DNA from: Gammaproteobacteria bacterium
GTDB lineage: Bacteria; Pseudomonadota; Gammaproteobacteria; S012-40
DNA: 64,000 bases
Direction: 5' to 3'
NCBI GenBank assembly: GCA_029881255.1
Contig: JAOUMY010000004.1
Coordinates: 147,313 to 211,312, forward strand
The first letter of the stretch is position 1; the number at the start of each line of letters is the position of its first letter. Both the position numbers and the translations under genes were made by a program. This document shows, in pieces, positions 27,655 to 33,564 of the stretch. The notes below the pieces were generated by a model that made no database searches, had not been told where the DNA came from, and saw only the letters and a list, made by a program, of their open reading frames with translations.

Positions 27655-27691
27655 CGGGCGCATGAATCAAATGATCAATGCGCCCGCTCGG
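27655..27691. terminator. Bidirectional terminator between the lipoprotein and small ORF
   Basis: Nine-base stem CGGGCGCAT/ATGCGCCCG (27655-27663 with 27678-27686). On the minus strand it is followed by TTTTT, and on the plus strand by CTCGGTTTT. It can end both the lipoprotein transcript and the small minus-strand transcript that stops at 27719. Confidence 0.85.
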
Positions 27692-27718: not shown

Positions 27719-27799
27719 TTAAACTGTCGACAATGGCAGTATAACGAAAAGTAACAGTGTCAAAGCCAAAAAGATGATAGGAACACCTGCATTACCCAC
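27719..27799 (-). CDS. Putative 26-residue membrane miniprotein (small ORF A)
   Basis: Minus-strand ORF with GTG start preceded at close spacing by GAGGAGGAG, a near-perfect Shine-Dalgarno. The product begins MGNAGVPIIFLALTLLLFVI and ends LPLSTV: one hydrophobic span with almost no soluble part. An upstream in-frame GTG near 27887, itself preceded by GAGGAGGAG, would add about 29 arginine-rich residues, so the real N-terminus is uncertain. It ends 33 bases before a T-run terminator. It is not clearly homologous to small ORFs B and C. Confidence 0.55.
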   Translation of the reverse strand: MGNAGVPIIFLALTLLLFVILPLSTV

Positions 27800-28137
27800 T
27801 GTTAACTCCTCCTCTGGTAATGTGCAACGCCTGACTCCCAGACGTCTGCGTTTAGAGAATCTCAACCTATGTTTGTAAACAAACACGGCGACACTCTCCT
27901 CCTCTCGAACCATACATATAGTGTCTGATCCAACGGTTCAATACCATAACTAATGTTTTGTCTAACATCAAGTAATAATTCGGAGTTTTCGTGTTTGTCC
28001 ATGAGGATTTGTTTTCTAGGTAGGACTATATTACCTGAGTAAAGCAAAAAGGATTTATAGATGGGAATTGTAAAGCTGACAAGAAAAAAGCCGGGAGAGG
28101 GATCCCGGCTTTTTTGCATCACGTAACTTGTACTGGC
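27800..28137. other. Interval between small ORFs A and B
   Basis: The minus strand carries a possible leader or extended N-terminus for small ORF A, with a second GAGGAGGAG, and a terminator-like hairpin at 28084. A 46-codon open frame starting MDKHENSELLLD has no ribosome-binding site and is probably not translated. Nothing else is recognisable. Confidence 0.4.
28084..28115. terminator. Bidirectional intrinsic terminator after small ORF B
   Basis: Thirteen-base stem: six As plus GCCGGGA pair with TCCCGGC plus six Ts (28084-28096 with 28103-28115), giving U-tracts on both strands. It lies 22 bases after the stop of the minus-strand ORF at 28138-28242, strong evidence that this tiny ORF is a transcription unit. 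Confidence 0.9.
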
Positions 28138-28242
28138 TTAGGCCATTGCCATGCCTATCATCGTAAGCGCAGTTATAACTACAACGAGATATAAAACTAC
28201 GATTGGATCATCAGACATGATATCGCTTCTTTGTTTTGCCAT
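28138..28242 (-). CDS. Putative 34-residue single-span membrane protein (small ORF B)
   Basis: Minus-strand ORF with GGAGAGG upstream of an ATG. The product starts MAKQRSDIMSDD, followed by a hydrophobic span VVLYLVVVITALTMIG and a short MAMA end. It aligns without gaps from residue 8 with small ORF C (shared IM, D, YL, VV, L, M, G and M positions), so the two are paralogues. A strong terminator follows at 28084. A possible promoter (TTGGGC, 18 bases, TATACA) reads toward it from 28394-28365. Family unknown to me; N-in topology is suggested by the charged N-terminus. Confidence 0.65.
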   Translation of the reverse strand: MAKQRSDIMSDDPIVVLYLVVVITALTMIGMAMA

Positions 28243-28364
28243 GGTGGTATACCTCTCCTTTACTGTTCAAAGCTGCATAAATTATGTCGTCCAAAATCAG
28301 GGACTCATTAACCATAGCAGCAAAAAAACATGAACAACAGAGAGAAGGCCATGAAAAATATATA

Positions 28365-28394
28365 TGTATAAATAAAGCGGAATTTATGGCCCAA
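28365..28394 (-). promoter_or_regulatory. Candidate sigma70 promoter for small ORF B
   Basis: Minus strand: TTGGGC (28394-28389), an 18-base spacer, then TATACA (28370-28365). Plausible boxes in AT-rich DNA, but there is no experimental support. Confidence 0.3.
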
Positions 28395-28520
28395 AAAGTC
28401 CCAACTAATTAAATGGGTTAAAGCGGGAAATAAAAGCAGATTCTTAATAAGAATTACTGAGTGAAATGTCGTTATTAAAATGGAAATAAATAGAAGAGCA
28501 GAGATTGGAAGAATGAAAGA

Positions 28521-28533
28521 GGGCGTTAGCCCC
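28521..28533 (-). terminator. Terminator-like hairpin after small ORF C
   Basis: On the minus strand GGGC-TAAC-GCCC is followed by TCTTTCATTC, 25 bases after the stop of the 34-residue ORF. The stem is short and the U-tract interrupted, so it is weaker than the hairpins after ORFs A and B. Confidence 0.5.
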
Positions 28534-28557
28534 CTTCCAAAGGTATACCAAGACTTG

Positions 28558-28662
28558 TTAGCCGCCCATGCTCACGCCAAGCATGCCAAGCAAAAATACT
28601 ACGACAGCAAGATAAGCCAGATACAGACCGTCGTGCTTCATGATGTGATCATCTTTATTCAT
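28558..28662 (-). CDS. Putative 34-residue single-span membrane protein (small ORF C)
   Basis: Minus-strand ORF with AGAGGGGG upstream of the ATG. The product starts MNKDDHIMKHDG, continues with the span LYLAYLAVVVFLLGMLG and ends VSMGG. It is a clear paralogue of small ORF B 316 bases away: same length, same charged N-terminus containing IM and D, and the shared pattern YLxVVxxxxLxMxGxxM. It lies divergent from the orphan OmpR-type regulator at 29126. A TTGCAT / TATGGT pair (28749-28720) may be its promoter. Confidence 0.65.
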   Translation of the reverse strand: MNKDDHIMKHDGLYLAYLAVVVFLLGMLGVSMGG

Positions 28663-29125
28663 CGGAATTCCCCCTCTAGAATTTCGTTACTTACGTGATG
28701 CTGCCTTTCGGCGGATAAAACCATACCAAATCACTAATATTTAATGCAAGCTTTTTTTATACGAAAACTAAATAGATAAGTAAAACAATAGGATATTGGA
28801 TGTTTGTATCGAGTGTCGTTGGGGTAGTATGAATATTGATCAAAAATCAGGCAAAAAACTGTTATGTAATTTTGTTTCACAACATGTTTTCTCATCGACA
28901 ACAATTCTTGAGTCTAGGGTTAAGTGAGGGTTCTTTTTCTACTGGAAAATATGCTAAGTTTCTGGCGGTGTATAAATTATTGTCTGAGGTGGTTTGGAGG
29001 GTTGCATTTAAAAGATTCTATTCTATGCTCACCAGGTAAACATTTGTAAAATGTGTAAACATTGTGACTAGGACGGAATAAGATATGCCGTTACAAAGGA
29101 TGAACTGAGGTCAAGAGGATAGACT
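28663..29125. other. Divergent interval between small ORF C and the OmpR-type regulator
   Basis: 463 AT-rich bases. It contains the possible promoter of small ORF C near 28720-28749 and tandem GTAAACATT repeats at 29036-29063 ahead of the regulator. An open frame at 28836-29039 lacks a ribosome-binding site and looks spurious. Confidence 0.5.
29036..29064. promoter_or_regulatory. Tandem direct repeats upstream of the OmpR-type regulator
   Basis: GTAAACATT occurs at 29036-29044 and 29055-29063, with the related GTAAAATGT between them at 29046-29054, giving three units at about 10-base spacing. OmpR-family proteins typically bind tandem repeats at one helical turn, so this is a candidate autoregulatory site 62 bases before the gene. 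Confidence 0.4.
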
Positions 29126-30450: not shown

Positions 30451-30476
30451 GAGACCAAGAATTTATCTGTGGTCTC
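30451..30476 (-). terminator. Hairpin at the end of the surface-protein operon
   Basis: GAGACCA/TGGTCTC stem of seven bases overlapping the stop codon of the 1033-residue gene; on the minus strand it is followed by CTAATTTTG. A modest terminator for the four-gene operon. Confidence 0.5.
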
Positions 30477-33400
30477 GTTTCGAGTGCTCGTTTTCATGAT
30501 GTTTTTTCTTATTCTTCTTTTTTCCTTCATGCTTTTTGTCATGCTCAACTACAATATCAGCTGACTTAGAGGATTGATTGCCGAATTTGTCTGTAGCCGT
30601 GGCTTCGATAGTGTAAATACGTTTTTCATGGCCATGGCGTAGCTTTTCGGCGCGTACCCAAACTTCCCATTTGCCATTAGATTCAACAATTTTCCAATCT
30701 TCGATTTCGAATTTGTGTCGATGACGATGGGTATCTTCACTAGTAATATTGATTTCCATGTGTGGGGTAGCATCAACAAGGTCGTTGAGATTGGTAACGT
30801 CGGCAACGTGCACTAGGCGATGTCGAGGAGGCCATAACACATCATCGTGCTGGATAATGTCAAATTGTGGTGCCGTCGTGTCGACGACAGTAACCTTTTG
30901 TACGAGTGAGATGCTATTTCCATTTGCATCAACTGCCTGCCAGGTCACCAGCGTTTCGCCTATAGGAAAAGAAACCGGTGCATTGTTCGATATCGTGGTA
31001 CTAAATACGTCGACGGCATTAGCACTGCCCAATTCGACAGTAGTCAGTATACCGGTAGCTTCAACGACGATATTTGCTGGAATGACAAGTTGAGGTGGCT
31101 TAGTGTCCACAACCGTAACAGTTTGCACATGAGTCGCGATATTTCCATTACTGTCTTTAGCTGTCCAGGTAACGAGAGTTTTACCCAGCGGAAATGCTAT
31201 AGGCGCGTCATTGCTGACCGTCGTTTCAAATATATCCGTGGCGTGCGCTGTACCAAGGTCCACAACGGATTCCTTGGCTGTGGCTTCAGTCACGACATCC
31301 ATCGGTGTTGCCACAAAAGTGGGCGGTACGCGGTCCACTACGGTTATCTTAATACTGTCCGTGGCAGTGTTCCCACTTTGGTCGCTTACCGTTGCGATTA
31401 CTGATGTTGTACCAAGCGGATATGTAGATAGAGCTGGCGCGTAACTCAGTGTCAATTGGCCACATTGGCAACTATCGGCGACTGACACGGGTGTAATTAT
31501 ATGTGCTGTTCCGTCTCTAGACGTTGCTTCAAGCACGAGATCCGAGCCAAGTTCCAACGTTGGTGCTGTTGTGTCTACAATACGTAAAGTTTGCGTAGCA
31601 GTACTCTGGTTGTTACTAGTATCCTGTGCCCTCCAAGTGATAGCGTGGTCTCCAAGGGCATAGCTGCCTACCGCATCACTTTCAACATAATCGAGAAAGA
31701 AATCATCAACTACTGGCGTAGGTATTGATACGCTGGTAAGTGTACCTTTTGCCTCGAATACTAATTCATTGAGTTGACCAAAAACTGGAGCAATTCGATC
31801 GAGCACAGTCACGGTTTTGACCGCTGTGCTGGTATTACTTGCGCTGTCAGTTGCTGAGATTGTTAATTCGGTTGTTCCCAGTGGGAAAATATTGAGATTT
31901 GGAGAGATACTTACGGTAGAGCCTCCACAGTTGTCTGACGAACTTGCCGAATAGGTATACAACGCACCCGCGGAACTGTTTGCTTCGAGCACAATATCTT
32001 GCGCACTAATGAAAGGTGCCGTGTTATCAAATATGTCTATTTGAATCTGATCTGTCGCCGTAGCGTTTCCATCATCAGTCACTAATAGTTCAACACTATA
32101 TTGCCCTACCGATAAATCAGTGTTAACAGATGCACCCTGATAATTAAGCCCATCTATAGACCAGCGATGATCGACAATATAGCCGTCCAGATCATAAGAC
32201 GCTGATCCGTTGAACGTAAGGTTGGTCATTTCCCCGGTACAAGCGGTAGCGTAGTCATTTCCAGCAATGGCAACTGGTGCAATATTTGGAATTGGGTCTC
32301 GAAGTCGGGCAAAAACATTGACAATGTTGTTTGCGCCTAGATTCGGAGCACCAGAGGCAAAAACCCCGATCTGACCATTACCGCTAATATCAGTGGAAAA
32401 TGACACCGTACTATCGATTTGTGTACCAGCACTATTACGAGTGAGAATTTCGAAGTTCTTGGTAATCCTGTCGTAGACCAATAGATCATAGCCAGAGTTG
32501 GCGTCAGTCGTTAAATTGCTGGCACGACTGATAAAGCTGATGAATCGGCCATTATCACTAATTCTTGCGTTCAAACTTAAACTGTCGGCTATAGTGCCAT
32601 TTTTTTGGGTTATTAGCTGGGTTTTGTTCTGATTTCTATCGCGTAGAAAAATATGGAATCCTGAGCTGTTATAACTTACGTCAAGGTTTTCTGCTAATGA
32701 GTGAAATGCCACAAAACGACCGTCTGCACTTATACTAGGTGATGAACTCTTTTTGTCACCCAGTTGTCCATAATTGTTTATTGAAACGAGTTCTGTTTTA
32801 CCTGTTACATGGTCATACAGAAATATATCGTATTGATCGTTCGTGTCGGGTGTTGTGACGAGATTGTTTGCTCTGGATGAAAAAGCGACGTATCGGCCAT
32901 CGGCGCTTATGGCTGGGGTTAACGATTCACCATTTGCAGGCCCGCTAATTCCCTTTGAGACTAGAAAAGTTTTTTGAGTGCTTATCTGATGCAGATAGAC
33001 GTTTGCGCCACTATATGCCGAATCACTAGTCATATTTCCAGAGGCAGATACAAAAGCTACCCAATTACCATCTCCCGATATCGCAGGTTGATCACTATAG
33101 CCTTCAGGACTTGCGCCACCAGCAGGTCGACTTATCCAGATAGTTTGATTGGTATTCAGGTCTTTCAAGAAAACACTGGTATAGCTACCTACGTTGTCGG
33201 AAGTAAGATTTTTTGCATAAGATGTAAAAACGACGCGCTGTCCTGAATTTGAAATATCGGCTTGATAATTGTATCCGGTTGCAATGCTTCCAGCGTTTGT
33301 AGAACTGACTAGCGTACTTGTGCCTGTGTTCAAATCTTTACGAATAATTTGCTGGAAACTGCTTAATGATCCCACTATGTCATTCGCAACAGATTCAAAA

Positions 33401-33564
33401 ACTATGTATCTTCCGTCAAAGTTTGAGCGAGGTGAGTTGCTAACGTTTGTTGCAGGTGTTCCCGCCAATGTCGTGCTTACCGCACTGGTAGTTGCTGAAA
33501 ATGCAGAAGAGCTTGCAATACTTAATATGAGCAGTGTCCCTGTTTTTCTAAATAGATGACACAT
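30463..33564 (-). CDS. Large secreted protein: seven-bladed propeller, PKD and HYR domains
   Basis: 1033-residue exported protein with a signal peptide ending near AFSA. Residues about 40-420 contain seven repeats of the form PxISxDGRxVAFxSxxxNL (for example AISADGRYVAFSSRANNL, SISADGRFVAFHSLAENL), implying a TolB/WD40-like seven-bladed propeller. A PKD-like domain follows (FNGSASYDLDGYIVDHRWS). Five HYR-like repeats of about 75 residues come next, each ending in a VxTVTVVD-type strand. A final WPPRHRLVHV domain and a tail of about 25 residues dominated by Lys, His and Glu end the protein. Probably a surface or matrix adhesin. It is the last gene of the operon, 2 bases after the small secreted protein gene. 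Confidence 0.85.
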   Translation of the reverse strand: MCHLFRKTGTLLILSIASSSAFSATTSAVSTTLAGTPATNVSNSPRSNFDGRYIVFESVANDIVGSLSSFQQIIRKDLNTGTSTLVSSTNAGSIATGYNYQADISNSGQRVVFTSYAKNLTSDNVGSYTSVFLKDLNTNQTIWISRPAGGASPEGYSDQPAISGDGNWVAFVSASGNMTSDSAYSGANVYLHQISTQKTFLVSKGISGPANGESLTPAISADGRYVAFSSRANNLVTTPDTNDQYDIFLYDHVTGKTELVSINNYGQLGDKKSSSPSISADGRFVAFHSLAENLDVSYNSSGFHIFLRDRNQNKTQLITQKNGTIADSLSLNARISDNGRFISFISRASNLTTDANSGYDLLVYDRITKNFEILTRNSAGTQIDSTVSFSTDISGNGQIGVFASGAPNLGANNIVNVFARLRDPIPNIAPVAIAGNDYATACTGEMTNLTFNGSASYDLDGYIVDHRWSIDGLNYQGASVNTDLSVGQYSVELLVTDDGNATATDQIQIDIFDNTAPFISAQDIVLEANSSAGALYTYSASSSDNCGGSTVSISPNLNIFPLGTTELTISATDSASNTSTAVKTVTVLDRIAPVFGQLNELVFEAKGTLTSVSIPTPVVDDFFLDYVESDAVGSYALGDHAITWRAQDTSNNQSTATQTLRIVDTTAPTLELGSDLVLEATSRDGTAHIITPVSVADSCQCGQLTLSYAPALSTYPLGTTSVIATVSDQSGNTATDSIKITVVDRVPPTFVATPMDVVTEATAKESVVDLGTAHATDIFETTVSNDAPIAFPLGKTLVTWTAKDSNGNIATHVQTVTVVDTKPPQLVIPANIVVEATGILTTVELGSANAVDVFSTTISNNAPVSFPIGETLVTWQAVDANGNSISLVQKVTVVDTTAPQFDIIQHDDVLWPPRHRLVHVADVTNLNDLVDATPHMEINITSEDTHRHRHKFEIEDWKIVESNGKWEVWVRAEKLRHGHEKRIYTIEATATDKFGNQSSKSADIVVEHDKKHEGKKKNKKKHHENEHSKRDHR

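Follow-up and report, generated by a model that had tools for sequence, protein, structure and literature searches.

Some short bacterial RNAs both encode a peptide and base-pair, SgrS being an example. VcdRP, a dual-function RNA, likewise encodes 29 aa and base-pairs (PMC8672173). Pairing between two mRNAs is known in bacteria from few cases. In Listeria monocytogenes, the 3′UTR of hly pairs with the 5′UTR of prsA2 in a stabilizing interaction (PMC7821165), and the two ends of one mRNA can also pair, as in icaR and in hbs, where the pairing covers 14 nt (PMC7821165). The leaders of mRNAs for small hydrophobic peptides can face a short antisense match, as in zorO-orzO, shoB-ohsC and tisB-istR, the match of OrzO to zorO being 18 nt long (PMC3919570). 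Our literature search, which covered few subscription papers and is hence weak evidence for an absence, did not turn up a reciprocal pair of coding mRNAs, nor any mRNA-mRNA pairing described as kept by compensatory change across genera.

The locus reported here, composed of the small genes A and B, shares one feature with each of these systems. As in hly-prsA2, the 3′UTR of one mRNA is complementary to the 5′UTR of another; that pairing is one-way and joins unrelated genes, whereas A and B are tandem paralogs, belong to another phylum and match in both directions. As in zorO-orzO, shoB-ohsC and tisB-istR, an mRNA for a small hydrophobic peptide is matched in its leader by a short antisense sequence, which in those systems lies in a separate noncoding RNA and here in the 3′UTR of a paralogous mRNA. 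Pairing of a 3′ with a 5′ end recalls icaR and hbs, but these pair within the mRNA of a single gene, while here A-A and B-B matches are weak and A-B matches strong. Finally, A and B resemble SgrS and VcdRP in being short RNAs that encode a peptide and could base-pair, and differ from both in that the partner is the mRNA of a sister peptide and the match is reciprocal. What appears to be new is this reciprocity between coding mRNAs, one-way UTR pairing between mRNAs being already known. The evidence for A and B comes from sequence alone and can be tested directly on two genes of about 220 nt.

The window, that is, the whole stretch of 64,000 nt that we analyzed, carries A and B together with a third small gene, C (Table 1). 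The pair A and B recurs in tandem in 8 of the 13 genomes of the window's order, with peptides of 31-37 residues; C is found in the same eight, and the order C-A-B is identical in all of them. Among orthologs, pN/pS amounts to 0.46 in A, 0.36 in B and 0.35 in C, the true frame has higher substitution scores than the other frames, and there is no in-frame stop. Judged by this conservation, A, B and C are real conserved genes, and by these ratios they are under purifying selection. A and B align with 12 identical residues (36%), and their direct similarity is weak (E about 0.4, pairwise). However, the A query retrieves a B-type relative (G002:C171:1333, E=2.6e-4) and the B query A-type relatives (E=0.012 and 0.044), and the paralogy is thus supported by intermediates linking the two types. 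AlphaFold2 predicts for A a single confident helix at residues 13-33. At curated cut-offs, Pfam, NCBIfam and PDB give no match to A or B. A broader profile recovered relatives, about 28-41 residues long, from 22 of the 369 genomes of the class; the divergent ones reach several families outside the order, and some genomes hold three or four unlinked copies. A, B and their relatives make up a hitherto undescribed peptide family that spans several families of the class. Extra C-like copies were also seen elsewhere in G002, G004, G008 and G011.

These results bear out most of an initial annotation of this DNA, which had described A and B, with exactly these coordinates and translations, as a paralogous pair of 34-residue single-span peptides with good ribosome-binding sites (RBS; present at both genes), under selection and of no described family. 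Of the outcomes it had named as contrary, two could be checked from sequence, lack of conservation and frameshifts or stops in relatives, and neither occurred.

Table 1. Features of the A-B-C cluster, in window coordinates
Feature	Position	Strand	Description
Gene A	28138..28242	-	34-aa single-span membrane peptide, K-R-T/S-D-DD type, MAKQRSDIMSDDPIVVLYLVVVITALTMIGMAMA
Gene B	28558..28662	-	34-aa single-span membrane peptide, HIMKHD type, MNKDDHIMKHDGLYLAYLAVVVFLLGMLGVSMGG
Gene C	27719..27799	-	26-aa membrane peptide, GTG start, VGNAGVPIIFLALTLLLFVILPLSTV; linked to A and B in 8/8 genomes
B 5′ leader element	28691..28701	-	GCATCACGTAA, complementary to the A 3′UTR
A 3′UTR element	28116..28126	-	TTACGTGATGC, predicted to pair with the B leader
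A 5′ leader element	28245..28254	-	AGGTATACCA, at the Shine-Dalgarno/ATG spacer, complementary to the B 3′UTR
B 3′UTR element	28541..28550	-	TGGTATACCT, predicted to pair with the A leader
Promoter of B	28720..28749	-	TTGCAT, 18 nt, TATGGT; predicted start near 28713; conserved in orthologs
Tentative promoter of A	28311..28337	-	TTGTTC, 15 nt, TATGGT; weaker than ortholog promoters
Terminator hairpin of A	28084..28115	-	13 perfect bp, 22 nt past the stop, followed by a T run
Terminator-like hairpin of B	28515..28537	-	about 20 nt past the stop; read from the sequence
Terminator hairpin of C	27655..27686	-	from cross-genome flank comparison and inverted-repeat search

Both A and B appear to be separate transcription units, as had been claimed, with their own promoters, conserved in orthologs, and a hairpin at a similar distance after each stop. 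The promoters are supported by the comparison of orthologs, those of B reading mostly TTGCA, 18 nt, TATG[GT]T or similar across the eight genomes, although a simple consensus scanner found no promoter and no terminator for A or B. From the predicted promoter and terminator positions, the two mRNAs would each measure roughly 215-230 nt.

Within these predicted mRNAs, each 3′UTR has a complement in the leader of the partner: that of B matches the 5′ leader of A, and that of A matches the leader of B. Both helices are perfect in the window and measure 10 bp for the B 3′UTR with the A leader (p=0.012) and 11 bp for the A 3′UTR with the B leader (p=0.003). An unbiased inverted-repeat search of the region returned four pairs only, namely two terminators and the two A-B helices. 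By our own estimate, about 1 and 0.3 inverted repeats of 10 and 11 bp are expected by chance in 1.5 kb; the window repeats alone are thus near chance, and the claim rests on the comparison across eight genomes. The initial annotation had taken the difference between the two flanks as a sign of selection on the peptide. This remark, if understood to mean that only the peptide is selected, did not hold, as the flanks contain conserved promoters and elements complementary between A and B; its reading of A and B as paralogous single-span peptides under selection stood, and it had missed gene C and the UTR complementarity.

Within every genome, each 3′UTR was scored for pairing with each leader, dinucleotide shuffles serving as the reference. 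With tests devised after the pattern had been noticed, pairing exceeds the shuffles (p<=0.035) in 14 of 22 A-B combinations versus 2 of 68 other combinations. At least one A-B direction is kept in all eight genomes, and both are kept in four (the window, G002, G004 and G007). In G001, G006 and G008 the sole match is that of the B 3′UTR to the A leader, which reaches 33 positions with two mismatches; in G011 it is that of the A 3′UTR to the B leader, so that 4 of the 16 directions show no pairing. When partners are permuted between genomes in all 40,320 ways, the observed sum for the B 3′UTR with the A leader is attained once, by the true matching, and that for the A 3′UTR with the B leader 29 times. 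The mean predicted two-RNA folding energy is -28.7 kcal/mol within genomes versus -14.2 between genomes, and A-A and B-B combinations give -5 to -16. The elements themselves are unrelated in sequence between genera or groups while their complementarity is kept (TGGTATACCT, GCCAGGTAAAC, AAGTACTGTT, TTACGTGATGC and AGATTGCGCTTTT), and between the window and G004 a one-base deletion affects both partners (GCAT-CACGTAA / TTACGTG-ATGC). In G004, moreover, each of the linked A copies has both elements, with a G-U pair in one of the copies, and the unlinked third copy has neither. Outside the A-B pair, the motif TTTACCTGGCAA occurs only within long reading frames (G001, G006, G007 and G008) and nowhere else in G001; the motif of these four genomes is not a dispersed repeat. 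A tandem duplication produces direct, not inverted, similarity. Since the pairing is genome-specific and duplication would give direct similarity, the complementarity goes beyond shared ancestry, and its maintenance by covariation is well supported by these comparisons. Every leader element falls downstream of the predicted transcription start, and the 3′ elements are placed after the stop codon and ahead of the terminator hairpin. Neither combinations involving gene C nor distant paralogs in family f81 gave consistent pairing.

In the mechanism that we propose, each mRNA would have its own promoter and terminator and encode one of the sister single-span membrane peptides, and its stretch from the stop codon to the terminator would base-pair with the 5′ leader of the partner. 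Since each 3′UTR matches the other's leader, the two mRNAs could join head to tail in a 1:1 complex. That the A and B RNAs pair inside the cell is, given the covariation, very likely. Such pairing would couple the expression of both peptides, and we favor, with some reserve, a reciprocal coupling that most likely takes the form of mutual repression. Repression would proceed by blocking of the ribosome standby or binding region and exposure of the duplex to RNase III, the more abundant message prevailing; for this particular outcome we see about an even chance. More broadly, each paralog mRNA may serve as the regulatory RNA of the other, forming an RNA-only comparator or toggle that selects or balances the sister peptides and is kept by compensatory change across genera, a reading to which we lean only slightly. 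All 13 genomes of the order encode Hfq, and the window's genome has two Hfq-family genes (G000:C9:174201-174386 and G000:C11:116380-116559), the second quite divergent. Short stand-alone membrane-peptide genes, which usually go unannotated, may more generally double as regulatory RNAs.

Pairing could instead stabilize, each mRNA shielding its partner against decay at the 5′ end, such that the peptides are made together in a 1:1 ratio. This is how hly, the best-known natural analogue, acts, its 3′UTR protecting prsA2 mRNA from RNase J1 (PMC7821165), and the position of the elements fits, because the distance from leader element to start codon is 22-57 nt in 12 of 13 cases, the element lying upstream, and many elements begin no more than about 15 nt from the predicted 5′ end. 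Modeling of RBS access detected no consistent change upon pairing, as protection of the 5′ end would allow; by itself the modeling therefore favors neither repression nor stabilization. Separate promoters and terminators would, however, be an odd route to equal expression, and in the window, there alone, the A element overlaps the RBS region. Because of these separate signals, and because the window helix spans the Shine-Dalgarno-to-start region of A, repression is somewhat likelier, and we regard mutual stabilization as rather doubtful. A type I toxin-antitoxin-like device, in which the peptides would be membrane toxins and each mRNA the antisense antitoxin of its partner, would also account for small hydrophobic peptides encoded in tandem by mRNAs that an antisense sequence matches, over 9-33 nt, comparable to the match between OrzO and zorO (PMC3919570). 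Orthologs are nevertheless kept across genera under purifying selection, relatives elsewhere occur without an antisense partner, and no separate antitoxin RNA was identified, all of which makes such a device improbable, although an antitoxin RNA outside Rfam, which has no match in the window, may exist.

Mutual repression, stabilization and the toxin-antitoxin reading all place the elements in RNA; they could otherwise be DNA inverted repeats, for instance of an invertible segment carrying the A promoter, which the arms in the B 3′UTR and the A leader do flank. This is very unlikely: one orientation is found in all eight genomes, which gives no support to inversion, all four arms fall within predicted UTRs, and the other two arms enclose both ORFs; moreover, the pairing tolerates a G-U pair, and where A is duplicated within the cluster, both copies retain both elements. 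Lastly, size, single span and stand-alone genes would suit small accessory subunits of cytochrome bd like CydX or CydH, the UTR matches then being incidental. The peptides have no PDB match and the UTRs covary; moreover, CydA was found in none of the 13 genomes, by a search that matched 10 of 14 control genomes, and cytochrome bd subunits are therefore excluded for this order, which leaves this explanation with hardly any probability. The initial annotation had suggested more generally that the peptides could be regulators or small subunits of a membrane complex, and subunits of another complex are possible. Judging by their size, single helix and paralogy, A and B probably serve an inner-membrane complex as accessory subunits, either as alternatives or as partners, and their mRNAs, in the reading that we favor, would repress each other.

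The cluster lies near htpG in most genomes and adjoins mnmA in G001, and this variation of the neighbor indicates that it forms its own unit. A function read from the neighbors was rejected on the same ground, the switch between htpG and mnmA leaving no operon link; at the htpG loci of named genomes, examined in an HtpG scan, the peptide genes are absent. In the window, a gene beside the cluster (30463-33564, minus strand) encodes a large protein of 1033 aa that looks secreted and contains repeated HYR-like stretches. A palindrome, CCCATAA-N6-TATGG (L035, L036, L039 and L041), immediately precedes the -35 of gene A; it is nearly unique in each genome and looks like a dedicated operator. A regulon defined by this palindrome was considered and rejected, as essentially only the A promoter has it and two extra matches are chance-like. 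In family f81 (L162, L169 and L170), the leader of a peptide relative contains a hairpin with a conserved loop, TTACTCA, on a stem that varies (GGAATT/AATTCC, GGTATT/AATACC). In families f71 and f144 (L127-L130), a peptide relative lies upstream of a birA-like gene, which is followed by a pantothenate-kinase-like gene.
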